NCBI RefSeq assembly: GCF_014647475.1
Contig: NZ_BMPG01000009.1
Location: forward strand, 1 to 36,147
DNA: 36,147 nt
From: Halocalculus aciditolerans
GTDB lineage: Archaea; Halobacteriota; Halobacteria; Halobacteriales; Halobacteriaceae
Direction of reading: 5' to 3'
The notes beneath the pieces were generated by a model. The model searched no databases and was not told the origin of the DNA. It worked only from the letters and a program-made list of their open reading frames with translations. The position numbers and the translations under genes were made by a program. Positions 292 to 35,853 of the stretch are shown piece after piece. Position 1 is the first letter of the stretch. The number at the start of each line of letters is the position of its first letter.

Positions 292-356
292 GGGCAATCG
301 GCACGCTACATTGTGCACGGATGATCATCGATGAGTCAGGCAACGCTGGGCTCGGC
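292..356. repeat. Right arm of the inverted repeat, overlapping the R-M gene start
   Basis: Exact reverse complement of 1-65. It spans about 39 nt of upstream sequence plus the first 26 nt of the R-M coding region starting at 331. It includes an internal 10-bp palindrome (gatgatcatc, 320-329) just before the start codon. Recombination between the arms would leave the first codons of the gene unchanged while replacing everything upstream of 292. Confidence 0.95.
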
Positions 357-3300
357 CTACCAGAATTCGAGCCTCTTCTCCGGCTACTATCTCGACGAAC
401 GCGTCTACGATCTCGACGGGTGGGACTGCGACGAGGGCGCACGGAAAGCGCTCGCGGAACTCCGAGAGCTGTGGGACCTCGAACGGGATCTCGTCGCCTC
501 CTACAAGGAGGACGAACTGCTCGACTCGTGGATCGACGAAGTGCTCGATGTTCTGGGGTTCGGAACGCTCTCGGAGACGACGCTTCCCGGCGGTGGCGGG
601 TACAACGACCGCCTCCTCTTCGAATCGGCGGACGTCCGCCGAAAAGCGGCGACGCGGAAACGCGACGGAAATCAAGACGCCGCGTACAACCTCAGTGCCG
701 CGCTCCTCGAAGCCAAGCAGTGGGACGCGGACTTCACGACGCGGTTCAGCGAGCAGCGCTCGTACCGCGATGCGTCCCACCAGATCAAGTACTACCTGGA
801 ACACACGCCGGAAGACGTCGAGTGGGGCGTTCTCACGAACGGCCGGAAGTGGCGGCTCTACGGGACGAAGGACTACGCCACGGAGATCTACTACGAGGTC
901 GATCTGCCCGAACTCCTCGAGTCCGGGACGCTGGAACAGTTCAAGTACTTCTACGCGTTCTTCCGACCAGATGCCTTCCGGAAAACCGGCGGGACGTCGT
1001 TCCTCGATACGGTCTGGAACGAGAGCGAGACCGCCGCACGAGAACTCGGCGAAGACCTCCAAGACAACGTCTTCACGGCGCTCCGCGTCCTCGGCGAGGG
1101 GTTCCTCCGGACGAACGACGGGCTCGAACTCGACCCGGAGGACGAAGCGGGCCTCGCCGAGCTCAAAGAACAGTCGCTCGTCCTCCTCTATCGGTTGATG
1201 TTCGTGCTCTACGCGGAATCCCGGGACCTCATTCATCCCGAGAACCCGGCGATGCGCGACGAGTACGACCAGCACTTCGGGCTCAATCACCTCCGGTCGC
1301 GGATCCACGAGGACGTCCAGTCCGGCGACGACTTCGGGGACTACAGCGAGATATCCACGCAGATGTGGGGGCGACTCGACGAGCTCTTCGCACTCGTCGA
1401 CGAGGGCGAGGAATCGCTCGGCATCCCGCCCTACAACGGCGGGCTGTTCGACGCCGACGACCACGAGTTCCTCGCCGAGCACGCCGTCGCCGACCGCTAC
1501 ATCGCCGAAGTGATCTACCGGATCGGGACCACCGAGACCGAGGACGGCGAGTTCGTCCTCGCGGACTACGCCGACCTCGACACCCGCCACCTCGGCACCA
1601 TCTACGAGGGCCTCCTCGAACACGAGTTCCGGATCGCCCCTGAAGAGTACGCGGCCGTCTCTGAGGACGGCGGACAGGTCTGGAAGCCCGCGACCGAGGT
1701 GAGCGTCGCCGACGCCGTCGAAACCGTTGACGAGGGTGATCTGTATGTCGTAAACGACGACGGGGAACGCAAAGCGACGGGCGCGTACTACACTCCCGAC
1801 TATATCGTCGCGTACATCGTCGAGGAGTCGGTCGGATCTCTCGTCGACGACATCGAAGCCGACCTCAGAGCGGACGGGTTGGATCCCAGCGAGACGGAGT
1901 ACTTCAGGCGGTTCTGGCAGGGCGTCCTCGACCTGAAAATTCTCGACCCCGCCATGGGCAGCGCGCATTTTCTCACCGCTGCCACGGGTTACTTGACCGC
2001 CCGCGTTATGGGAGTGGTCCGCGAGCAGGAGATTCAGGGATACGACGAACAGGATCTCAGACGCGAAATCGCCCGCGAGTGCATTTACGGAGTGGACATC
2101 AACGGGATAGCGGTCGAGCTGGCGAAGCTCTCGATGTGGCTCGAAACGCTCGCCGCCGACCAGCCCCTCGCGTTCCTCGATCACCACCTGAAGACGGGGA
2201 ACTCACTCATCGGGAGTGACATCGAGGACGTTCTCGGCGACGAGAGCGACCAGTCCGGCCAGACGCAACTCACGGACTGGATGGATCAGACCCGTCAGCG
2301 CGCCCTGGAACACGTTCTGGATCGATTCTCGGATCTTCTCAGCATCGACAACGAGACGCTGGGAGGTATTAAGGAGATGGAAGAAGTGTACGCAGAGATT
2401 CGGGAGGACTCCCTCTATCGACACCTCCTGGCGATGGTGAACGTACATACGGCGTCGGATTTCGGTCTCGACGTTCCCGATGACGCCGAAGAGCAGATGG
2501 CTGAAGCACTTCGGGACGACTCGTGGGACGACATCGAGAACGCAGATTGGTTTCGGGAGGCTCAAGCGATGGCCAAGGAAGAGGGCTTCTTCCATTGGCA
2601 GCTAGAGTTCCCCGTCGTGTTCTATGGAGGGGACGGCGAGCGGCTGGAGGACCCCGGGTTCGATGCGGTGATCGGAAATCCGCCATACGTTGAAGTTGGA
2701 GACTCGGTTGAGGGGTACCTTCGCAGCACATTCGAGGTGCCGGAATACTTCGTTGATCTATTCCACGTGTTCATCGAACGGGGCGTTCAACTCCTTTCGG
2801 AGAACAGCGAGTTCGGATATATCGTTCCAGAGCCGTGGCTGACGATGGAGAACACGAGTCGGCTTCGCCAGTTCCTCCTCACGAACACGGCTGTAGAGCA
2901 AGTCGTCCGATTCGAGAGTACAGTATTCGATGAAGCGACAGTTGATACGATAATTCTGACGCTCCGCAAAACGGATGACCTAGATAGAATTCGCGTACTA
3001 CGCGCTGAGAACGAGGGATCTCGGATCCGGGGGATCACAGAGACGAACCAACTGGACCAGGAGTCACTTCTCAGCACTCAACAGAAACGTATCGAGGTTC
3101 GTCAGACCGCGCAAGAGTCAGAGATCCTAGATCGGATCCGATCAGCCAGCGTCCAGCTAGATGAAATCGCGGATGTCTCGATAGGAATCCAGGCGTATAA
3201 TCGTTCGAAGCACACCGAAGAACAGATCGAAAATCGCGTATTTCACGCTGACAACAAGGAATCCGAGGAGTATCTCCCCGAGTTGTCTGGTCAGGACGTC

Positions 3301-4440
3301 TCTCGATACTCGGTGAAGCACGACGGAGAGACCTGGGTGAAGTACGGGGATCATCTCCACGATTATCGACCGATGCGGTACTTTAGCGCGCCCCGCATTC
3401 TCGTCCGCGAGATCACGGACTCCGGCAGACACAAAATTCACGCAGCGTATACCGAGGAGACCTATTGCAACTACAAGACGATCCTGAACATCTTGCCGAC
3501 CGGTGACTACTCTGCCAAGTATCTCTTAGCGGTCCTGAATTCCACTGCTATGTCTTGGATTTTCCTTCGAACATCGAATAAGGTCGTCTCTGACACTTTC
3601 CCTCGTATCTCGGTCACCGATCTGGAGGGCTTGGACATCCCGCGTATCGACTTCTCGAAGTCGCCCCCTCTCTCCGTACAGAAGTTGGAGGAACTGTTCA
3701 GGGATTATCTTAGAACAGGTGACTCGGCCCCATTCAAAAGTGTGATCTCTGACATGGTTGATTTCTCCTCCGGTCATCCGGGAGTACTTCATGACTTCCT
3801 TCGAGCGCGCGTGGACGACCTCAATGATTGGCAAGAGCGGAGATCCCTGATCGATCTCCCCCTCCTGGACTACCTCGGGAACTACACAAAGGGCCCGAAT
3901 CTCCCCGACATCGGGCTCTTTCAGCCAACGTCGTCGAATATCCTCGATGCGACGGCGGAGGACTACGAGAAACTCCGCGTCGGCGACGTCGAGACCGAGC
4001 GGGACGGCTCCAGTGTGACGGTGTCCGCGACGGCGCGGTATAAGCCCGAGGACGAGGACGCCTTCGAGACCGACCAGTGGGGGTACGCGGAGACCGGATA
4101 CGAGGAAGCGTTTACGCTCACTGATCTCACTGAGGTGGAAGCCGCACTCGTCGAAGCGTTCGTCCCCGTCGCCGCAGAGGAGGCCGACGGCTTCGCCGGT
4201 TTCCGGGACAACGCGACGAAGACGAACTCACCTATCGACCGACTGAAAGCCATCACGCTACCGGACCCCGACGACGTCGCGGACGACTTGGAGCGCTACT
4301 TCCAAGCCAAAGAACGGGCTGACGAACTCGACGAGAAGATCGAGAAGACCGACGACCTCATCGACGATATCGTCTACGACCTGTACGGCCTGTCCGAGGA
4401 GGAGATCGAGATCGTCGAGTCGTCGGTTCGTAACGACTGA
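331..4440 (+). CDS. Type IIG-like restriction-modification enzyme (Eco57I/PglX-like adenine methyltransferase)
   Basis: The protein has 1369 residues. An N-terminal endonuclease-like region carries an ExK motif (Glu127-Ala-Lys129 in LLEAKQWD), as in single-chain type IIG enzymes. The central N6-adenine methyltransferase has the SAM-binding motif DPAMGSAHF near residue 539 and the catalytic NPPY near 783. A target-recognition region follows, ending in a helical tail (residues about 1320-1365, DLYGLSEEEIEIVE). It should methylate adenine in a short DNA site and cut unmethylated DNA. Start 331 is the first in-frame ATG; the ATG at 321 is in another frame. The part from about 2780 to 3800 looks less GC-rich than the ends, suggesting an exchanged specificity module. 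A BREX PglX or DISARM methyltransferase is an alternative. No partner genes lie downstream, but upstream is not visible. The start lies inside an inverted repeat. Confidence 0.85.
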   Translation: MSQATLGSAYQNSSLFSGYYLDERVYDLDGWDCDEGARKALAELRELWDLERDLVASYKEDELLDSWIDEVLDVLGFGTLSETTLPGGGGYNDRLLFESADVRRKAATRKRDGNQDAAYNLSAALLEAKQWDADFTTRFSEQRSYRDASHQIKYYLEHTPEDVEWGVLTNGRKWRLYGTKDYATEIYYEVDLPELLESGTLEQFKYFYAFFRPDAFRKTGGTSFLDTVWNESETAARELGEDLQDNVFTALRVLGEGFLRTNDGLELDPEDEAGLAELKEQSLVLLYRLMFVLYAESRDLIHPENPAMRDEYDQHFGLNHLRSRIHEDVQSGDDFGDYSEISTQMWGRLDELFALVDEGEESLGIPPYNGGLFDADDHEFLAEHAVADRYIAEVIYRIGTTETEDGEFVLADYADLDTRHLGTIYEGLLEHEFRIAPEEYAAVSEDGGQVWKPATEVSVADAVETVDEGDLYVVNDDGERKATGAYYTPDYIVAYIVEESVGSLVDDIEADLRADGLDPSETEYFRRFWQGVLDLKILDPAMGSAHFLTAATGYLTARVMGVVREQEIQGYDEQDLRREIARECIYGVDINGIAVELAKLSMWLETLAADQPLAFLDHHLKTGNSLIGSDIEDVLGDESDQSGQTQLTDWMDQTRQRALEHVLDRFSDLLSIDNETLGGIKEMEEVYAEIREDSLYRHLLAMVNVHTASDFGLDVPDDAEEQMAEALRDDSWDDIENADWFREAQAMAKEEGFFHWQLEFPVVFYGGDGERLEDPGFDAVIGNPPYVEVGDSVEGYLRSTFEVPEYFVDLFHVFIERGVQLLSENSEFGYIVPEPWLTMENTSRLRQFLLTNTAVEQVVRFESTVFDEATVDTIILTLRKTDDLDRIRVLRAENEGSRIRGITETNQLDQESLLSTQQKRIEVRQTAQESEILDRIRSASVQLDEIADVSIGIQAYNRSKHTEEQIENRVFHADNKESEEYLPELSGQDVSRYSVKHDGETWVKYGDHLHDYRPMRYFSAPRILVREITDSGRHKIHAAYTEETYCNYKTILNILPTGDYSAKYLLAVLNSTAMSWIFLRTSNKVVSDTFPRISVTDLEGLDIPRIDFSKSPPLSVQKLEELFRDYLRTGDSAPFKSVISDMVDFSSGHPGVLHDFLRARVDDLNDWQERRSLIDLPLLDYLGNYTKGPNLPDIGLFQPTSSNILDATAEDYEKLRVGDVETERDGSSVTVSATARYKPEDEDAFETDQWGYAETGYEEAFTLTDLTEVEAALVEAFVPVAAEEADGFAGFRDNATKTNSPIDRLKAITLPDPDDVADDLERYFQAKERADELDEKIEKTDDLIDDIVYDLYGLSEEEIEIVESSVRND

Positions 4441-21604: not shown

Positions 21605-22558
21605 CTAGCGGGTGTGGTGTTCGACGACGGTGGTTTCGACGACGGTGAGGGTGTCGTCGAGGACGACGCGGAGTTCGTCGCCGTCGCAGTCGACGGTGAC
21701 GCGGACGCGGAGCGGGTCGTCGTCGAGGACGTCGGTGTGGGTGTCGCTGACGCACCAGTCGAAGTGCCAGAAGTGCTCGGCGTTCAGGTCGACGTCGCGC
21801 TCGGAGTGGAAGAGGAGGACGTTCGGGTCGTCGAGGAGCGTCACGCCGACGGTCGATTGGAGGGCGTAGCCGCAGCGCTCGCAGACGTGGTCGACGGCGA
21901 CGTCGAGGGCTTCGTCGGCGGGGTCGCGGACGAGCGTGGTGTCGACGGAGCCGGTGCACTCCGGGCAGACGCCGTCGGCGGCGAGACAGTAGTGGTGGCG
22001 GACGTAGTGGTGGAAGGCCTGCAGGAGGTCGTCGGTCGTGCGGTCGTCGAGGCCGCCGGAGGGGAAGGGGTAGCTCACTTGGATGGTGCCGCAGTCGACG
22101 CAGCCGATGGAGAGCTCGTCGTCGACGTACCAGCCGTGGAGGTAGCCGCCGCAGTCGTAGCAGGTGCCGTCGACGGGGAAGAACCCGACCTGTGCGCGCT
22201 CGGTGAGCGTCCCGGTGAAGATGGCGCTCACGACTTTCCGGCCGGGGTGGCGGAACTCGTAGCCCTCGTCGCGCTGCTTGATGAAGTGGCCGGTGAGCCG
22301 GCGGAGGTGGTAGTTGAAGTTCGCGCTGTCGTCGATGTCCACGCGCTCGAAGAGGTCGGTGAAGCGCACGGGCGCGTCGTCCGCGCCGAGTTCGAGGAGC
22401 GCGCGCAGGATGTCGACGCGCGTGTCGTTCCCGAGGATGGAGAACACCTCCGCCGGGAGCAGCCGGGACTCCGTGCGCGCGACGGGTTCGCGGTCCGCCG
22501 ACGCCTCCTCGCGCCGCGGCTCGGACTCCGCGCCCCCGCGCTGGTCGTGTTGGCTCAT
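21605..22558 (-). CDS. Winged-helix regulator with two zinc-ribbon units
   Basis: From the ATG at 22558 this encodes 317 residues. After a charged N-terminal tail of about 30 residues comes an ArsR-like winged helix (LLPAEVFSILGNDTRVDILRAL, then FNYHLRRLTGHFIK, residues about 38-95). Two Cys-rich zinc-binding parts follow: CYDCGG paired with CVDCG, and CPECTGS paired with CERCG. A beta-rich end follows (VLDDDPLRVRVTVDCDGDELRVVLDD). This layout matches a haloarchaeal family of ArsR-type regulators with DUF7351-like C-termini. A palindrome overlapping its own TATA element suggests autoregulation. It diverges from the TetR-type gene, with 107 bp between starts. Confidence 0.82.
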   Translation of the reverse strand: MSQHDQRGGAESEPRREEASADREPVARTESRLLPAEVFSILGNDTRVDILRALLELGADDAPVRFTDLFERVDIDDSANFNYHLRRLTGHFIKQRDEGYEFRHPGRKVVSAIFTGTLTERAQVGFFPVDGTCYDCGGYLHGWYVDDELSIGCVDCGTIQVSYPFPSGGLDDRTTDDLLQAFHHYVRHHYCLAADGVCPECTGSVDTTLVRDPADEALDVAVDHVCERCGYALQSTVGVTLLDDPNVLLFHSERDVDLNAEHFWHFDWCVSDTHTDVLDDDPLRVRVTVDCDGDELRVVLDDTLTVVETTVVEHHTR

Positions 22559-27242: not shown

Positions 27243-29999
27243 CTAGAGGCCGACGTTCGCGAGGAGCGCGTCGAGGACTTTCCGCTCGGCGTCCCGGAGA
27301 TGCTGGCTGAACGTCGGCTGCGAGATGCCGAGCGAGTCCGCGACGTCCCCGCCCGTCGCGGCCCGCGGCCGCTCGAAGTAGCCCGCGTAGTACGCCGCCT
27401 GGAGCGCGTTCCGCTGGCGCTCCGTCAACTCGACCGGGAGCGACTCGATGGTGACCGCCGGCTGGATGTCCTCCCAGGCGACCTGCCGGCGGCGAATCAT
27501 CTCCGTCGTCGGATACGCGTCCTGAATCGCGTCCGTGACTCGGCGGACGTCCGCGTTGAACGGCACGTGCACCGTCACGTCGAACTCGCCGTTCGCGTCC
27601 ACCACGGCGTGGTCGATGCCGCCGCCGACGGCGAGCAGGGCGGACAAGAGCGGCGGGTCCCGCGCTCGCACTTCCAGCGGCCGCGTCCCGTCCGCCGTCG
27701 ACTCGCCCGCCGACACCGCCTCCCACTGCGGCACCGCCGCCGCGAGGTCGCGCGCCGCCGGGAGCGCCGCCTCGTCCACGGCCCCGTACACCACGAACTC
27801 GTCGTCGCTCACCGGAACCGCGTGGTCGAACCGAATCTCGCCGGACGGCGGCGCGGCGACGCCAGCCGTCTCGTAGAGGTCGTCGATGTGGAACTCTAGC
27901 TCGACGGCTTCGTCGCTCAGGAGCGCGCGCTTTCGCTCCGTCGCCGCGATAGCGTGCCCGACGACGTCGCCCAGCCGGCTGATGACCGCGCGCTCCTGGT
28001 GCTCGAACGCGTTCGGCCGCGCCGCGTACACGTTCAACACCCCGTAGGTCGCGTCGTCGTGCGTGAGCGGAATCGCCGCCGACGACCGGAAGCCGTACTC
28101 GGCGACGTCGCTCCGCCACAGCTGATAGCTCTCGTCCGTCACGATGTCCTGCGTCGTCTGCACCTCCCCCGTCCGGAACGCCCGCCCGGTCGGCCCGTCG
28201 CTGTGCTCGTCGCTCGGGTCGACCGAGATGGTGATGCCGTCGAGGTAGTCGGAGACGCCGGCCTCCGCGCGGGACGTCACGGTCTGCGTCGCCGGGTCCA
28301 CGTCGCCGATCCACGCGAACAGGTAGGAGTCCGCGGCCGCGAGATGCTCGCAGACCGCCGTTTCGATCTCGCGGCGCGTCGACTGCTCGACGACCGCGTC
28401 CGTCACGCCCTGAACGACCTCCGTGACGTTCAGGAGCGCCGTGAGCTGCTCGCGCTGCCGGCGGAGGCGGTCCTCGTCGCGGCGGCGCGCGATGGCGGAC
28501 GCGAGGATGTGCGCGACCGACTGCACGAACGTCACGTCGTGCTCGGAGAACGCCGTGACCGACGTGTCGTGCGTCCCCAGCACGCCCCACGGGTCGTCGG
28601 CCGGACCGATGACCGTGCTGATGCCGCCGCGCACGTCGTGGTCCGTGAGGAGCGACGGCCCGCTGAACCGCGTCTCGGCCGTCAAATCCTCGACGACGAC
28701 CGGGTTCTCGCTCTCCAGCGTGTACGCCGCCTGCGACTCCTCGTCGACCGCCGACACCGACGCCGACCCGACGAGCCCGTCCCGCCAGCCGACGCCCTGC
28801 CGGAGCAGGAGCGACTCGTCTTCCGCGTCGAGGTCTAACACCTTGCAGTAGTCGGTGTCGAGGACGTCCGCGACGAGTTCGACCGCGTCCCCCAAGAGCG
28901 CGTCCACGTCCTGCCCGCGGAGCGCGCGCTGCCCGAGCGTCGCCACGGCCTCCTGCTGGCGGACGCGCTCGCGGAGCTGGCGCTCTCGCTCCACGCGGTC
29001 CGTCACGTCGCGTAAGTAGAGCGAGAGACCGTCGTCCGAAGACGACGGGTACGCGCGGACCTCCACCCACGCGTCCAGCGCGTCCGCGTGGAACTCGAAC
29101 TCCGCGTGCTCGCCCGTCGACACCGCCTCCCGGAGGCTCTCCCGCGGCACCCGCGCCTCGAACTCCGGCACGAGGTCGTCGAGGCGCGAGCCGAGCGCCG
29201 ACGCGACCGACGTTCCCAGTAAGGCCTCCGCGTCGTCGTTCGCGTACTGGATGCGCCACGACGCGTCAACGCCGAGCACGGCCTCGTCCACGCGCTCGAA
29301 GACGTCGTCGAGTTCGCGCTCTGCCTCCGCGCGACGCCGTTCGAGCTCGCGCTCCTTCTCCTGTCGGTCCGTGACGTCCCGGCCGATGCCCGTGAACCCC
29401 GTCACGGTCCCGTTCGCGTCACGTATCGGCGTCGCGCTGAACTCGTAGGGGATTCGCTCGCCCGCCGCGGTCTCCAGCGGGAGGTCCACCGTGACGCTCT
29501 CCCCGTCGAGCGCGCGCACGACGGCGTCCAGCGTCTCGGCCTGCGCGTCGTCCGCCACGAACATCGTCGGAGACATCCCCTCGAGCTCCTCGTTCGCGTA
29601 CCCGGTCACCTCGACGACCGGGTCGTTCCACCGCCGGAGCGTCGCGTCCGCCCCGAAGACGTAGATGAGGTCGCGCTGGTTCTCGAAGATGCTCGCGAGA
29701 TAGGACGCGTCCGCGGACTGTTCGCTCGAGCCCGCACTCGCACCGAAATCGCTCGCCTCGCCCGTGGTCGTTCGCCCTGTCCGCGCGGCGTCGGCGGGCC
29801 GCCACCAGACGCGCGCGCTCGCTCCGACCGCCTTCGTCTCCACGCGCCCCCGGTCGGCGAGGCGCTCCAGTCGGTCGTACGTGCTCCGCCGACCGAGGTC
29901 GAGGCGGTCGGCGACTTCCGTCGTCGTGAGCGGCGTCCCCGACGACTCGTCGAAAGCGGCGAGCGTCTCCCGGAGCGCCTCGGTCAACGATTCCATCAT
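27243..29999 (-). CDS. Large HTH_10 (bat-like) sensor regulator: winged HTH-PAS-PAS-GAF-GAF-Bat-HTH_10
   Basis: From ATG 29999 (or 29996) this encodes 918 residues. An N-terminal winged helix (about 24-68, LTTTEVADRLDLGRRSTYDRLERLADRG) precedes two PAS domains (about 95-215, 230-340). GAF1 (about 355-500) has the DTDYCKVLDLD and DDPWGVLGTHDT motifs, GAF2 spans about 520-680, and a Bat domain follows. The C-terminal HTH_10 (about 850-912) has ELTERQRNALQAAYYAGYFERPR and SQPTFSQHLRDAERKVLDALLA. There is no receiver or kinase domain, so it senses its signal directly through PAS/GAF and controls transcription. The open frame begins with a TTG at 30026, which I reject. DNA-binding domains at both ends are unusual but occur in this family. 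Target genes are not visible; it is monocistronic. Confidence 0.88.
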   Translation of the reverse strand: MMESLTEALRETLAAFDESSGTPLTTTEVADRLDLGRRSTYDRLERLADRGRVETKAVGASARVWWRPADAARTGRTTTGEASDFGASAGSSEQSADASYLASIFENQRDLIYVFGADATLRRWNDPVVEVTGYANEELEGMSPTMFVADDAQAETLDAVVRALDGESVTVDLPLETAAGERIPYEFSATPIRDANGTVTGFTGIGRDVTDRQEKERELERRRAEAERELDDVFERVDEAVLGVDASWRIQYANDDAEALLGTSVASALGSRLDDLVPEFEARVPRESLREAVSTGEHAEFEFHADALDAWVEVRAYPSSSDDGLSLYLRDVTDRVERERQLRERVRQQEAVATLGQRALRGQDVDALLGDAVELVADVLDTDYCKVLDLDAEDESLLLRQGVGWRDGLVGSASVSAVDEESQAAYTLESENPVVVEDLTAETRFSGPSLLTDHDVRGGISTVIGPADDPWGVLGTHDTSVTAFSEHDVTFVQSVAHILASAIARRRDEDRLRRQREQLTALLNVTEVVQGVTDAVVEQSTRREIETAVCEHLAAADSYLFAWIGDVDPATQTVTSRAEAGVSDYLDGITISVDPSDEHSDGPTGRAFRTGEVQTTQDIVTDESYQLWRSDVAEYGFRSSAAIPLTHDDATYGVLNVYAARPNAFEHQERAVISRLGDVVGHAIAATERKRALLSDEAVELEFHIDDLYETAGVAAPPSGEIRFDHAVPVSDDEFVVYGAVDEAALPAARDLAAAVPQWEAVSAGESTADGTRPLEVRARDPPLLSALLAVGGGIDHAVVDANGEFDVTVHVPFNADVRRVTDAIQDAYPTTEMIRRRQVAWEDIQPAVTIESLPVELTERQRNALQAAYYAGYFERPRAATGGDVADSLGISQPTFSQHLRDAERKVLDALLANVGL

Positions 30000-30344
30000 C
30001 CCCCTTTCGCCGCTGCGACTATTCAACCCTCCGCCGGCGGAAGCACTCGGCCGCGCGCTATCGCCCCCGACCGAGCCAAAAACGCCTGCCTCCGCGCCAT
30101 CGCTTCGCCGCCGCCCCGCCGCGGCCGCCCGTCCACCACCCCATCGGCCCGCGGTGCTTTCCGCACGGCGTTGAACGCCGCGGCGACGACGGGCCTGGCG
30201 GAGCGTACACGCGACTCAATATGAATAGGCATAACTCACAACTCCCGAGAGGCCGAATCATCGGGTAGCCTCATCACGAGGCTACGACTCCCCCTTTCCC
30301 CCTTCGCGGGCCGCGGCCACCCCCTCGCCCCGGCCCGCACCCCC
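30000..30344. other. Gene-free interval between helicase operon and HTH_10 regulator
   Basis: I see no convincing gene. A 69-codon minus-strand frame (30023-30232, MPIHIESRVRS...) is Arg/Ala-rich and probably non-coding, though it cannot be excluded. The interval holds the hairpin at 30265-30285, a C/T-rich run at 30287-30303 and the upstream region of the regulator, where gaata near 30024 could be its TATA element. Confidence 0.5.
30265..30285 (-). terminator. Hairpin downstream of the helicase-nuclease operon
   Basis: A perfect 8-bp stem (gtagcctc 30265-30272 / gaggctac 30278-30285) with loop atcac lies about 60 nt beyond the last stop codon of the leftward operon (30345). There is no obvious U-tract, so it may be a 3' end-stabilising or processing element instead of a classical terminator. 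Confidence 0.4.
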
Positions 30345-33300
30345 TTACGTCACCGAGTCGAGGAGCGACGCGAGCCGACGCTCCACGACCCCCGCCGGCA
30401 GCGACGACGTGACCGTCTCCCGCGTCACGCCGAACGTCTCGATCGCCGGTTGTACTTCTGTGTCTCCCTCCCGCTCGAAGAGCGACGCGTACGCGGCGAC
30501 CTGGAGCGCGTACCGGCGTCGCGTCGCCGCCGTCGGCTCCGCGAGCGCGATCTTCACGTCCACGACGCGCCGCGTCCCGTCCGCCGAGCGAATCACGAAA
30601 TCCGCCTGCCCGTGCAGTTCGAACTCCACGCCCGCTACGCGAACGAGTCCATCTACCGGCTGCTCGACCGCCACCGACGCCGCAGCGTCGAGCTGCGCCC
30701 ACAGCGTCGAGTCGAGAAACGCGTCCCGCACCGACGCCTCGAAGAACGCGACGAGCGCGTCCCGCTCCGCGTCGGTCGCGTCGGGGGCGTGTTCTTCGAC
30801 GACCTCGTCGAAGAGCGAGCGCACCTCGCTCGTCATCTCTCGCAGCGAGGCCTCGTCGACGCCGCGCGCCACCACGCCCGTGAGCACCGCGTGCAGGCAG
30901 CGCCCGACCGCGCCCGGCCCCATCGCGTCGAAGGGGAACGGGAGCGACTCCGGGACCGCCTCCGTCTCCGTGTGGAGCGCGTTCCCGAGCAGGTGGTCGA
31001 CCGCGTGCGCCGCCGGGTCTTCCGTCAGCGGATACATCGTGCTCGGGTTCACGAACCGCGGCAGCCACGCCGGGAGCGCGCCCCGCCGCGGCGGCACGCT
31101 CGCGACGTCCGACGGCGGCACCGCCGGACGCGGCGGCGTCGACGCGAGGAAATCCACGTCGTTCACGCCGACGCGGACCGGGCCGCTCGCGGTGTCGAGC
31201 GTGTAGTCGTCCGTCCCGCCCGCGTACCCGAGGCCGTCGCGGACGGCGTCGAGCCAGCGGTCCCGCGGCTGCGGCGACCCCGGCACCGCCTTCGGGAGCG
31301 GGACGACGAGGTGGTCGCGGGCGCGCGTCAGCGCCACGTAGAGGAGTCGCCACGACTCCGCGCGCGCCGCCGCCGCGACCGACTGGAGGCGCGGCGGCCC
31401 GACCAGCGTCCCGCGCTCGGCGTCGCCCGCGACGTCCCGCCAGTGCTCCGTCGCCCATCGTAGCCCCGCGTCCCGCCGCGCCACCCCCTCGCTCCCCCGG
31501 TCCCCGTCCGGCTCGTACACCCCGCCGGCGTACGGCGGAAGCGGCGTTTCTGTGGGGGTGTCGGTGTTCGTCGGCGGCGCGAGCGCCGCGACGCCGTCCC
31601 GCGCGACGAACCGGGCGTCGTACGGCCCGCGCGACCAGACGTCGAACCCGAGGTCCGCGAGCACGACCACGTCGTCCTCGTCGCCCTTCGCGCGGTGGAC
31701 CGTCCGGAACGTCACGTCGTGCGCGTCGCCAGCGTTCGGCTGCTGCGGCCCCTCCCGCGGCGTCTCCCTGTACGGCGCGGCGAGCGAAACGGCCTCCTCG
31801 ACACCTGCGTCTGCTTCGTCGCCGACCCAGTCCGCGAGCACTTCGGCGAGCGCGTCCACGTTCGCGACGCGCTGCTCGCCGCCGACGCCCGCGAACACGC
31901 CGTGCGGGTCCGCGCGGAGCGAGAGCGCTTCCGCCACGTCCTCGACGACCGCGTCCACGGGCTGTGTCTCGAACGCCGCCCGCCGCTCCCGCAGGTCGCA
32001 GAGCCCGTCCAACACGGCCGCCTGTGCCGCCGTGAGCGTCGCGTTCTCTCTGACGGCGTCGACGTCCCACCCGTGCGCGTCGAAGGCCCCGCGAAGGTCG
32101 CCGAGCGGGAGCGGCGAGCCGACGAGCGCCGCCAGCGTTCGCTCCGTCGGGTCCGCGAGCCACGCCAGCGCCGCGCACGCCGCCGCCACCACCGGGCAGT
32201 CGAAGAGAAAGTCGCTCGCCCGCCGCACCCGCAGCCCCTCCGCCGCGAACGCCGCCTCGTAGTCCGCCATCCGCGTGCGCCGCCGGAACAACACCGTGAC
32301 GTCGAGCGGGTCGCCCGCCTCGTCCGTGAACGTCCCGTCCGCCAGCGCGCGCGCGAGGTACGTCGCCAGCACCGTCGCCTCGCCCTGCCCGCGCTCGGGG
32401 TTCACCCACGACTGCGACCCCGGCCGCCCCGTCCCCTCGAACGCCGCGACGTGCACGCCCGCGCCTGCTGGTTCCTCTCGCGCCGCTTCGAGCCGCGGGT
32501 AGTCGACGTCGAGCGGGCCGGCGTTCCCGCGCGCCGCATCCGAGAGCACGGGCTCCATCACGGCGTCGACGGCCGCCGCGACCGCCGGCGCGCACCGGTA
32601 CGTCGTCCGCGCCGTCCGCGTCTCGTGCGTCCCCCACTCCACGCCGAGGTAGACGCCGTCGCGGGCGGCGCGCTCGAAGACCGTCGGGTCCGCGTGCCGC
32701 CAGCCGTAGACGCTCTGGAGCGTGTCCCCACAGGCGAACACCCGCGTCGACGGCGTAACGAGGTGGGAGAGCGCCGCGTGCTGCGCGAGCGAGACGTCCT
32801 GTGCCTCGTCCACGACGAGACTCCCGATGCGCGCCCGATACCGCGCTCGCACCCGGGCGTCCGGGGCGTCGACGCCGTCGAGCGTCCCCGCGAAGTAGCC
32901 GTCGACGAGGTACGCGACGTCCGTGTGCGAGACGACGCCGCGCTCTCGCGTCGCCTCGCGATACGCCGCTCGATACGCCTCGAACACGGCGCAGAAATCC
33001 GCGACGCACGCCGTCCACGAATCGTAGAGCGAGCGGTCCGCGTCTGCGACGCGCTCGCGCGTGGAAGAATCATATCGGTCTCTCGCCGCGCTCGCCGACG
33101 CCTCGCCCGCGAACGCCCCCAGCGCCGCCACGACGTCCGCGAACCCCGCCGGACGCCCGCCCGGATACACCGCCTCCACGGTCGCGTCGAGCTCGTCGCG
33201 GAACGCCGCCGTCGAGAGCCGGCGGTCCCGGCAGTACGCGAGCGAGCTCGCCAGCATCTCCGCCACGCCCTCTTCGTACTCCTCGTCGGGATACGCCGCT

Positions 33301-33830
33301 TCCAAGCGGTCGAGGCGCGCGGCGAGCGCGTCGTCGCCCCGGACCGATTCGTAACACGCCTCGCGGACGCGCGCGAGCCGCGCGTCGTTCCCGACGTCCG
33401 GGCGGCCGTCGAACCCGAGGTCCACGGCGACCTGGCCGAAGACGTCGCGCAGCAGGCTGTCCACGGTGCCGACGAACGGCGCGTCCCGCACGCGCTGTGC
33501 GAGCGCGTCCGCCTCCGCCATCGACACCTCGCGGCCCGCTGGCGTGAGGTCGTACTCGACGATGTCGCGCAGGCGCGCCGTCACGGCCGGAACGATGTCC
33601 GCCGCCTCGTCCCGGTTGAAGGAGACGACTGCGACGCGCGCCGCCGGCGACGACTCCCCCGCGACGTACCGCCGCAGGACGTCCTCCGCCGCGACGTGAT
33701 GGGCGACCAGCGACTTCCCCGACCCCGGCACGCAGTTCAACGTGAACAGCCCCGACTCGTGCGCGACGAACGCGTCCCGAATCGCCGCCTGCGCGCCCCG
33801 CAGCCTGACCGGCCCGCCGTCGTCGCTCAC
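30345..33830 (-). CDS. AddA-like UvrD-family helicase with C-terminal PD-(D/E)XK nuclease
   Basis: This 1161-residue protein has the full superfamily 1 helicase set. Walker A PGSGKS is at 35-40, VGTVDSLLRDVF near 120-131, Walker B DEAQD at 341-345 and GDTLQSVYGWRHAD at 368-381. TYRC is near 410, VHRAKGDE lies around 700-730, and VALTRARDHL is farther on. The C-terminus has a RecB-type nuclease: GQADFVI followed by VVDVKI, giving the DxK near residue 1092. It should unwind and cut DNA ends with ATP, preparing them for recombination as AddA does. GTG 33830 overlaps the preceding gene's stop (GTGA). The two upstream genes look like an AddB-type partner, so all three probably form one complex in repair or in degrading foreign DNA. 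Confidence 0.85.
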   Translation of the reverse strand: MSDDGGPVRLRGAQAAIRDAFVAHESGLFTLNCVPGSGKSLVAHHVAAEDVLRRYVAGESSPAARVAVVSFNRDEAADIVPAVTARLRDIVEYDLTPAGREVSMAEADALAQRVRDAPFVGTVDSLLRDVFGQVAVDLGFDGRPDVGNDARLARVREACYESVRGDDALAARLDRLEAAYPDEEYEEGVAEMLASSLAYCRDRRLSTAAFRDELDATVEAVYPGGRPAGFADVVAALGAFAGEASASAARDRYDSSTRERVADADRSLYDSWTACVADFCAVFEAYRAAYREATRERGVVSHTDVAYLVDGYFAGTLDGVDAPDARVRARYRARIGSLVVDEAQDVSLAQHAALSHLVTPSTRVFACGDTLQSVYGWRHADPTVFERAARDGVYLGVEWGTHETRTARTTYRCAPAVAAAVDAVMEPVLSDAARGNAGPLDVDYPRLEAAREEPAGAGVHVAAFEGTGRPGSQSWVNPERGQGEATVLATYLARALADGTFTDEAGDPLDVTVLFRRRTRMADYEAAFAAEGLRVRRASDFLFDCPVVAAACAALAWLADPTERTLAALVGSPLPLGDLRGAFDAHGWDVDAVRENATLTAAQAAVLDGLCDLRERRAAFETQPVDAVVEDVAEALSLRADPHGVFAGVGGEQRVANVDALAEVLADWVGDEADAGVEEAVSLAAPYRETPREGPQQPNAGDAHDVTFRTVHRAKGDEDDVVVLADLGFDVWSRGPYDARFVARDGVAALAPPTNTDTPTETPLPPYAGGVYEPDGDRGSEGVARRDAGLRWATEHWRDVAGDAERGTLVGPPRLQSVAAAARAESWRLLYVALTRARDHLVVPLPKAVPGSPQPRDRWLDAVRDGLGYAGGTDDYTLDTASGPVRVGVNDVDFLASTPPRPAVPPSDVASVPPRRGALPAWLPRFVNPSTMYPLTEDPAAHAVDHLLGNALHTETEAVPESLPFPFDAMGPGAVGRCLHAVLTGVVARGVDEASLREMTSEVRSLFDEVVEEHAPDATDAERDALVAFFEASVRDAFLDSTLWAQLDAAASVAVEQPVDGLVRVAGVEFELHGQADFVIRSADGTRRVVDVKIALAEPTAATRRRYALQVAAYASLFEREGDTEVQPAIETFGVTRETVTSSLPAGVVERRLASLLDSVT

Positions 33831-35062
33831 GACCCCTCACCCTCGTCTGTCGCCCGTTCGCGTACCCGTTCGAGGGCCGCCGGGAGCACGCGGTCCCGGC
33901 TCACGAGCCGCCGGCGCTCCGACTCCGATAGCGCTTCGCGGTCCACGCCGGCGAGCAGCGGCGACGGATGGCGGGCGTCGCCGTCGACGCTCTCCGCGTG
34001 CCGCGTCACCACCAGCGCCTCGCCCGCCGCCGCGAGCGTGTCCGCGAACTGGTCGCGGTCCCGCCCGTCCGTCCACGCCGTCCGCGGCGCGAGCGACGCC
34101 GTGTCTCCACTCCCGTCCAGAACCGCGTCCCGGAGCTCCAGCGGGAGCGGGCTGTCCGCCCGCCGCGGCCACTCCCCGTCTACTAGCCCTACTGCGACCA
34201 CGTACGGCACGTCGAGCGCCCACACGTCGTTCGCCTCCGACACGTCCACCGCGAGCGCGTGCGAGTGCTCCCGGCGACCCGGGCGCTGCGTCGCGATGAG
34301 CCGCGCCAACTCCGCGACGGCACTCCACGACCGCTCCAGCGTCCCTTCGTCCAGCCGGTCCGCGTACTTGTAGCCGACCTGCTCGACGAGCGTCCGGAGG
34401 CGAACGACCGCCCGCGCGTCCGTCTCCGTTTCTAGTAGTGCTGGTGAATCCGACGCCTTCGTCGCCGGCACGCCCACCGCCTCGTAGGCGTCGACGACCC
34501 CGCCGAGCACGTCCCCCACTCGCTCGGGCGTCGGTGCCGGCTGCCCCGCCAGCCACGCCGCGAACCGCCGCACGCGCGAATCCACCGACGACTCCCCGAT
34601 TTCGTCCGCCCACTCCGCCGGCGTGCGCTCGCCCGCCGGGAGGTCGCGCGCCGCCGCCCGCGTCACCCGCGGCGGCACCGGCCACTCGCCGCTCGCGCGC
34701 TCGGCCGGTGCCCAGCGCCGCTCCAGCGGCCGGAGCAACGTCGCCGCGTCCAGCCTGTCCGCGTCGAGCGCGTCACAGACCGCGACGAGGAGCGCGAACG
34801 GCCGCGTCCGCGTCACCCGCAACTGCGTCCAGAACGCCGGCGCGAGCCCGTACTGGACCGCCGCTCGCGACAGCGCCTCCTCGTAGCCGTCGAGGTCCCG
34901 AGTCACCACCGCGACGTCGCGGACCGGGACGCCGTCCGCACAGAGCGCGTCCACGACCGCCATCGCCGCGCGCGCCTCCGCCCGCCGCGTCCGCGACACG
35001 ACCTCCACCACCGGAACGTCCGGCGCGTCCAGCGGCCCCGCGAGCGCCACCCGGTCCTTCAT
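33827..35062 (-). CDS. AddB-like protein, C-terminal part
   Basis: This 411-residue protein has motifs of the AddB/RecC-like inactive helicase group: VPVRDVAVVTRDLDGYEEALSRA (residues about 49-71), LLRPLERRW, VPYVVAVGLVDGEWPRRADSP and DTLAAAGEALVVTRHAESVDG. No Walker A is present, and no nuclease domain or Cys cluster of bacterial AddB is visible before the end at 33827. Its ATG at 35062 overlaps the stop of the upstream gene (ATGA), and its stop overlaps the GTG of the AddA-like gene. Coupled translation of three subunits is likely. It probably functions as the scaffold or recognition subunit. A programmed or accidental frameshift joining it to the upstream gene is an alternative. Confidence 0.65.
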   Translation of the reverse strand: MKDRVALAGPLDAPDVPVVEVVSRTRRAEARAAMAVVDALCADGVPVRDVAVVTRDLDGYEEALSRAAVQYGLAPAFWTQLRVTRTRPFALLVAVCDALDADRLDAATLLRPLERRWAPAERASGEWPVPPRVTRAAARDLPAGERTPAEWADEIGESSVDSRVRRFAAWLAGQPAPTPERVGDVLGGVVDAYEAVGVPATKASDSPALLETETDARAVVRLRTLVEQVGYKYADRLDEGTLERSWSAVAELARLIATQRPGRREHSHALAVDVSEANDVWALDVPYVVAVGLVDGEWPRRADSPLPLELRDAVLDGSGDTASLAPRTAWTDGRDRDQFADTLAAAGEALVVTRHAESVDGDARHPSPLLAGVDREALSESERRRLVSRDRVLPAALERVRERATDEGEGS

Positions 35063-35853
35063 CGCCGCTCGAACACCTCCGCGCCCGGCTCCGCGACGTC
35101 GAGCAGCGACGGCAGGCGCGCTTCGAGATACGACCCCGTCCCCCGCCGCGCGTAGACCGTCACCGCCGCGTCTGTTTCGTCGGCCAGCACGCCGAGCAGG
35201 TCGGCCTGCGGTGCCGACACGCTACTCACGCCGACGAGCGACACCCGCTCGATGTTCGGATACGCGTCCGTCCACGCCTCGCCCGCTGTCGCTGCGAGCA
35301 AGCGCGTCGCCCGCCGCACGAGCGCCGTGTCCGAGACCGCTTTCGGCGTTCGCTCTCGGAGCGCGCGCTCCGCGTCCAGCGCGACGTCCAGCACGTCCCG
35401 CGCGTCCGCGTCCACCGGCTCGTACAGCCCGTCCGCCGTCGCCTCGAACGCCTCGACGCGCGCCGGATGGAAGTTCGTCACCGACTCCACCTCCCCCCGC
35501 ACCTGCTCGACCACCTGCGGCATGCCTTCGGCGTCCCCCCGGAGTCGCCGCGGCACGTCCACCGCGTCCGCCGCCAGCGCCGACCGACAGAGCGAGAGTC
35601 GGTCGATCCGGTCGATGGGCCGCGACCGCTCCCCCGCCGCGTCGAGAACGGCTTTCGCCACCGCCGGCGCGTCGACGAACGCGAACGCGTCCTTCGGCGC
35701 GCGCGCCTCCCGGAGCCGACGCTGGAGATTCCGCCGGTGCAGCTCCACCGGTGCGACCACGAGCTCCGTCGGCTCCGCCGCCGCCGACGCGCGCCCGAGG
35801 AGCGACGACACCGCCCCCACCCGAACCGCGACAGCCGCCCCACGTTCTCCCAC
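35059..35853 (-). CDS. AddB-like protein, N-terminal part
   Basis: From GTG 35853 this encodes 264 residues. The first strand region (ELVVAPVELHRRNLQRRLRE, about 29-48) sits where AddB/RecC proteins have a Walker-A-like element, here without GKT. DAFAFVDAPAVAKAVLDAAG and NIERVSLVGVSSVSAPQADLLGVL (about 200-223) follow. The latter resembles the degenerate motif II of AddB. With the next frame it gives about 675 residues, roughly the length of an AddB without the C-terminal nuclease. It is the first gene of the operon. A TATA-like ggtttatcg at 35884-35892 (minus strand) would start transcription a few bases before the GTG. Confidence 0.6.
   Translation of the reverse strand: MGERGAAVAVRVGAVSSLLGRASAAAEPTELVVAPVELHRRNLQRRLREARAPKDAFAFVDAPAVAKAVLDAAGERSRPIDRIDRLSLCRSALAADAVDVPRRLRGDAEGMPQVVEQVRGEVESVTNFHPARVEAFEATADGLYEPVDADARDVLDVALDAERALRERTPKAVSDTALVRRATRLLAATAGEAWTDAYPNIERVSLVGVSSVSAPQADLLGVLADETDAAVTVYARRGTGSYLEARLPSLLDVAEPGAEVFERR

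Follow-up and report, generated by a model that had tools for sequence, protein, structure and literature searches.

The window, a stretch of 36,147 nucleotides from the haloarchaeon Halocalculus aciditolerans that makes up the entire contig C9 of a draft genome, carries on its minus strand three open reading frames in the order B1-B2-A (Table 1). Consecutive genes overlap by 4 nt (ATGA and GTGA), which confirms the layout given in the original prediction. About 290 bp separate the 5′ end of the operon from the end of the contig, and the exact start of B1 and the promoter are therefore uncertain. B1, B2 and A are real genes, as homologues in the same order are present in many other genomes, and dN/dS values of 0.14–0.44 between near pairs indicate that B1, B2, A and a fused form of B found in relatives are all under purifying selection. 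Downstream of the operon is a separate gene (27243–30026) which Pfam identifies as a bacterio-opsin-activator-like PAS/GAF/HTH_10 regulator and which most relatives lack. The opposite end of the contig encodes a 1369-aa DNA methyltransferase of the Eco57I/TaqI_C type, either type IIG or BREX PglX-like (331–4440, plus strand). An 89-nt tRNA-Ala(CGC) was also predicted at 22453–22541 (plus strand), overlapping a 361-aa ORF without a Pfam match; this is unusual length for a tRNA-Ala and the prediction is possibly spurious.

Table 1. Features of the B1-B2-A operon, in positions of the window.
Feature	Coordinates	Strand	Details
B1, putative N-terminal lobe of AddB-like subunit (AddB 1A/1B region)	35059..35853	-	264 aa, GTG start (uncertain), without Walker A
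B2, putative second lobe of AddB-like subunit (AddB 2A/2B region)	33827..35062	-	411 aa, ATG start, ends before AddB nuclease domain
A, putative AddA-like SF1 helicase with C-terminal RecB-family PD-(D/E)xK nuclease	30345..33830	-	1161 aa, GTG start
ATGA overlap, B1 stop/B2 start	35059..35062	-	SD-like GGAGGTG upstream
GTGA overlap, B2 stop/A start	33827..33830	-	
Walker A of A, PGSGKS, residues 35-40	33711..33728	-	
Nuclease core of A: D1077, D1091-x-K1093, Q1110-xxx-Y1114	30489..30602	-	

Judged by its sequence, A is an AddA-like SF1A helicase with a C-terminal PD-(D/E)xK nuclease whose catalytic motifs are intact. Pfam recognises UvrD-helicase (E = 2e-15) and PDDEXK_1 (2e-10) in the protein. 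The top NCBIfam models are AddA (2e-20 and 2e-16) followed by RecB (3e-10), all far below their cut-offs, with A scoring 73 bits against the 861 needed for the AddA equivalog. When a profile of ten A homologues was compared with the PDB, AddA of Bacillus subtilis was the best match (3u44_A, 1e-25), ahead of UvrD/Rep (about 3e-14) and RecB (1e-6). The Walker A, DEAQD and motif III–VI residues are conserved in the window and 52 relatives, as are the nuclease residues H980, E1071, D1077, D/E1091-x-K1093, Q1110 and Y1114; the exceptions are one motif VI position, where either T or S occurs, and a small number of aberrant or truncated sequences. This bears out the earlier proposal of an AddA-like protein with intact helicase motifs and a DxK nuclease. 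At two loci, in Halarchaeum acidiphilum (L070) and one strain of Halolamina pelagica (L074), the A gene is interrupted by frame changes.

B1 and B2 had been proposed to be the two halves of AddB. They fall in no recognisable Pfam or NCBIfam family and do not match the NCBIfam AddB equivalog; searched singly or as profiles, neither gave a credible AddB match in Pfam, NCBIfam or the PDB sequences. Their kinship to AddB is shown instead by predicted structures and by full-length archaeal proteins that bridge the two families, so that the profile comparison with AddB fails directly and succeeds through these intermediates. The AlphaFold model of the window's B2 (pLDDT 82.9) has B. subtilis AddB as its top five Foldseek matches (E = 1.7e-12). 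For the fused B of a relative (L058; pLDDT 92) AddB again takes the Foldseek top five (1e-19), and VIA placed AddB on top with Z 21.4 over 606 aligned residues (rmsd 5.1), covering AddB 2–716. The model of this fused protein, with whose first ~276 residues B1 aligns, covers AddB from residue 2 onward. In sequence, five of the full-length archaeal AddB-like proteins are matched at residues ~40–290 by the B1 HMM (E to 1e-13), and the B2 HMM matches residues ~300–730 of such proteins (E to 1e-32), so that the two profiles fall consecutively and colinearly on them. A profile of fused B and the full-length proteins aligns with AddB 65–417, which spans the split point. Together these models and the sequence bridge indicate a helicase-like 1A/1B/2A/2B fold in the AddB-like subunit and support the proposed assignment.

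A Walker A of the GK(S/T) form is absent from B1. The AddB-like subunit stops at about AddB residue 716 both as B1+B2 (675 aa) and as fused B (671–709 aa), and the AddB nuclease domain, whose absence had been noted in the window, is missing from split and fused forms alike. No recurrent nuclease was seen among the neighbours of the relatives' loci that could be a separately encoded AddB nuclease. The HMM alignment shows no conservation of the residues with which AddB binds Chi (F68 and those next to it), and for this reason we make no prediction of a Chi sequence. The latch residue E129 of AddB aligns with E121 of the window's B1 and is invariant in 11 aligned sequences; the position differs in homologues L060, L062 and L068, and on this alignment E121 is a lead only as a candidate latch residue.

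The bridging proteins found by the B2 profile are haloarchaeal proteins of 1114–1213 aa encoded directly upstream of AddA-like genes (L083–L092), which match AddB/RexB models (TIGR02773 addB to 4e-12) and PDB AddB (3u44_B, 1e-13). Those of L091 and L092 carry a D..DYK..QLPLY motif, and L091 has a clear PDDEXK_1 domain (2e-28). The proteins of L083–L090 (for example L085:3841-7257:-) keep the nuclease domain region and cysteines matching the AddB Fe-S site, but where the nuclease core aligns they show no (D/E)xK; in those of the L083–L090 proteins that were scanned, Pfam did not recognise a nuclease at a significant level. From these alignments they are possibly inactivated nucleases like RecC, in which a nuclease-like domain has been proposed to be kept but inactivated (PMC1185551). 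The forms can be set in a series, the order of which we infer, from an active-looking nuclease, through loss of the motif with the domain and cysteines kept, to loss of the domain (fused B) and finally a split scaffold, as in the window. Such a series resembles the proposed inactivation of RecC, taken further to the loss of the domain. Outside the haloarchaea, in archaea of the phylum, the full-length AddB-like profile gave only short matches inside frames of ~1020–1090 aa (for example G407:C1:1374194-1374481).

To place the split among homologues we used 53 loci in GTDB genomes, found through B2. In 52 of them the gene order is that of the window, with B immediately ahead of A, and in the remaining one A is past the contig end. 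Thirty-eight of the 53 are split at the same place as the window, and 15 encode a fused B of about 670–710 aa. All but one of the split loci (37/38) have a B1 stop/B2 start overlap of exactly 4 nt, and 27 of 39 have an SD-like motif ahead of B2. The split point corresponds to the linker between the two RecA-like lobes, at about residue 276 of the fused model, where local confidence dips. With full-length AddB-like proteins as the outgroup, the B tree gathers the 29 split sequences, that of the window among them, into one clade (SH-aLRT 99) and leaves the fused sequences outside it. The A tree also places split and fused loci on opposite sides of one branch, with a support of only 45 since the frameshifted L070 is unstable there. 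Given the single clade of split sequences, the simplest reading of the trees is one fission of an ancestral B that was fused and already nuclease-less. As to the predicted three-subunit composition, split B recurs in 38 loci, whereas fused B in 15 indicates that the system is not inherently three-subunit. AddB similarity was found, homologues are not all fused, and the ATGA junction is not a local error.

The operon is patchily distributed, being present in about one sixth of haloarchaea and missing from more than four fifths. B2 was detected in 72 of 391 haloarchaeal genomes, ~10 of these being distant full-length matches, and B1 occurs almost only beside B2. Matches to A are found on 18 plasmid records, 15 of them over most of the length of A and all 15 haloarchaeal, and some genomes hold two operon copies. 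Halohasta litorea (L034) and Halobacterium salinarum (L036), members of different families, have nearly identical B1-B2-A; their B1 genes are identical even at synonymous sites, so the transfer was recent. Integrase domains were found in 7 of 144 neighbour proteins scanned, integrase-like genes lie ~60–155 bp downstream of A at four loci (L029:14754-16199, L035:14964-16403, L054:14837-16276 and L061:12368-13813), and several relatives have serine-recombinase-like genes upstream of the operon; the integrases beside some copies are tyrosine integrases, and an element capable of integration may carry the operon. Copies in Halorubrum and Halolamina show stable chromosomal synteny. PADLOC gave scattered matches only among the 144 neighbour proteins, and defence genes were not clearly enriched. 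On a Natrinema zhouii plasmid (L076), AddAB-like genes adjoin a DUF1156/DUF499 set. On a Deinococcus psychrotolerans plasmid (L081) an AddAB-like pair adjoins a DUF499/DUF1156/DUF3780 set, of which the DUF1156 protein is annotated as anti-phage-associated.

We consider it very probable that the three genes together specify an AddAB-class enzyme, an ATP-dependent helicase-nuclease in which a motor-nuclease (A) works with a catalytically inert, AddB-derived scaffold supplied as B1 and B2. In AddAB, the nuclease of AddB cuts the strand that AddA does not; with this 5′-strand nuclease gone, A would be the only cutter. In Bacillus, AddA is the motor and its nuclease is placed to cut the 3′-terminated strand, and the helicase-like region of AddB is both the Chi scanner and a gate for that strand (PMC4824097). 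On this model, production of B1 (the first RecA-like lobe) and B2 (the second) would be coupled through their 4-nt stop/start overlap, and the two would assemble with A on duplex DNA ends. A would pull one strand in the 3′-5′ direction; B1+B2 would meanwhile part the two strands and lead the 3′-terminated one past the A nuclease, as the helicase-like region of Bacillus AddB does. As sole motor and sole cutter, A would give an enzyme like RecBC without RecD. The reach of the A nuclease would decide whether the enzyme leaves a 3′ overhang for RadA, leaves a 5′ overhang or degrades the DNA completely.

Two other readings concern the split and A itself. That the window is a draft contig and that B2 is in the -1 frame relative to B1 would fit a split that is a pseudogene or sequencing artefact, or B1 and B2 joined by programmed frameshifting. 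Thirty-eight loci of other genomes are nevertheless split alike, 37 of them with B2 starting in the same overlap, B2 is often preceded by an SD-like motif, no -1 slippery heptamer occurs in the 38 split relatives scanned, and both halves are under purifying selection; we rejected this origin, which has next to no chance of being correct. A might otherwise be a stand-alone helicase-nuclease of the UvrD/Cas4 type with B1 and B2 as unrelated accessory proteins, a view that fits the naming by Pfam of just UvrD and PDDEXK_1 in A and of nothing in B1 or B2. This we regard as very unlikely, given that B1-B2 or fused B lies directly upstream in the 52 loci with A in range (in a set found through B2) and that the predicted models give B an AddB fold.

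As to what an AddAB-class enzyme would do in these cells, it could well be a nuclease of defence or inter-element conflict, one that breaks down linear DNA of foreign origin and has plasmids and integrating elements as its carriers, a reading we hold to be quite plausible if somewhat short of probable. The patchy occurrence of the operon, its presence on plasmids and in two copies, its recent transfer between families and its integrase or serine-recombinase neighbours all favour it, as do the one locus beside a DUF1156/DUF499 set and the bacterial AddAB-like pair beside a similar set on the Deinococcus plasmid. Against it stand the scattered nature of the PADLOC matches, the housekeeping genes that share the contig with this genome's own copy, and the many copies in conserved chromosomal contexts. 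That chromosomal synteny, in Halorubrum and Halolamina, would also suit a resectase of recombinational repair, replacing AddAB/RecBC in function and feeding RadA, which is possible, though on balance we doubt it. The AddAB-class architecture, the conserved catalytic sites under purifying selection and the retention of a helicase-like fold that scans for Chi in Bacillus AddB (PMC4824097) speak for such a role. It sits poorly with the more than four fifths of haloarchaea that do without the operon, and with the NurA gene that this genome has 1.5 kb from a HerA-type (DUF87) ATPase domain (G000:C1:487800-490964); cutting of the 3′-terminated strand only would, moreover, leave the wrong overhang, unless the A nuclease also serves the 5′ strand. 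A review of DNA repair in Haloferax gives HerA and NurA as absent from H. volcanii and nowhere mentions AddAB (PMC7776575); contrary to this review, we observed NurA profile matches in H. volcanii. Across these readings, the cellular role of the AddAB-class enzyme is most likely an accessory one, the processing or destruction of plasmid, viral or broken chromosomal DNA ends, rather than core repair. The fullest form of the proposal, which we hold to be unlikely, is a mobile AddAB derivative with a single motor and a single nuclease, through which haloarchaeal mobile elements would degrade DNA ends. Its strand gate, the latch salt bridge of AddB between E129 (1B) and R629 (2A), would then lie across the interface of B1 and B2, and the gate could be put together, swapped or controlled piece by piece.

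The view that AddAB enzymes are only bacterial, from which the original prediction set out, proved too strong: haloarchaea have full-length AddAB-like operons, and other archaea of the phylum have the ~1040-aa frames with matches. Database annotation likewise lists many full-length PD-(D/E)XK family proteins of the AddAB-like kind on haloarchaeal plasmids, and archaeal addAB genes are reportedly mentioned by Cromie in 2009. Archaeal AddAB-like proteins are thus not new and full-length versions are common; the new variant is the AddB that is nuclease-less and split between its lobes, and we found no description in the open-access literature of an AddB that lacks the nuclease or is divided in this way. 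The operon would provide a naturally occurring form of a classic repair enzyme with only one cutting subunit. With the graded series one can test which strand is cut by an AddAB that has one nuclease, whether the scaffold needs to be a single chain, and what AddAB-like machines do where HerA-NurA is present as well.

Several known systems resemble the operon in part. A matches GajB profiles of Gabija (GajAB) through the shared UvrD core, and its partner is AddB-like rather than the OLD-type nuclease GajA. HerA-NurA is, like the proposed enzyme, an archaeal machine for DNA-end resection, yet it consists of unrelated proteins and is separately present in the same genome. Mycobacterial AdnAB is a heterodimer of UvrD-like proteins of similar fold. 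Both of its subunits have helicase and nuclease domains, whereas the operon's B has neither a Walker A nor a nuclease. RecBCD is similar in plan, with motor and nuclease in a single subunit and an inert scaffold of helicase fold as its partner, and RecC also matches B structurally. RecC retains its inactivated nuclease-like domain, however, while B has no such C-terminal domain, and the operon contains no RecD-like gene. The full-length haloarchaeal AddAB-like pairs (L083–L092) share the gene order and the consecutive B1 and B2 profile matches, and differ in that their AddB is unsplit, at 1114–1213 aa, and has a C-terminal cysteine cluster. With AddAB of B. subtilis (PDB 3u44/4cej) the differences are that A is far under the NCBIfam equivalog cut-offs and B1 and B2 match none, that B is without the AddB nuclease and four-Cys Fe-S site and B1 without a Walker A, and that the AddB counterpart is two proteins in the window and 38 of the 53 loci, which depart from the two-subunit composition. 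The likenesses are that A is nearer to AddA than to RecB or UvrD, that B matches AddB over its entire helicase-like part, and that the genes are adjacent with B ahead of A.
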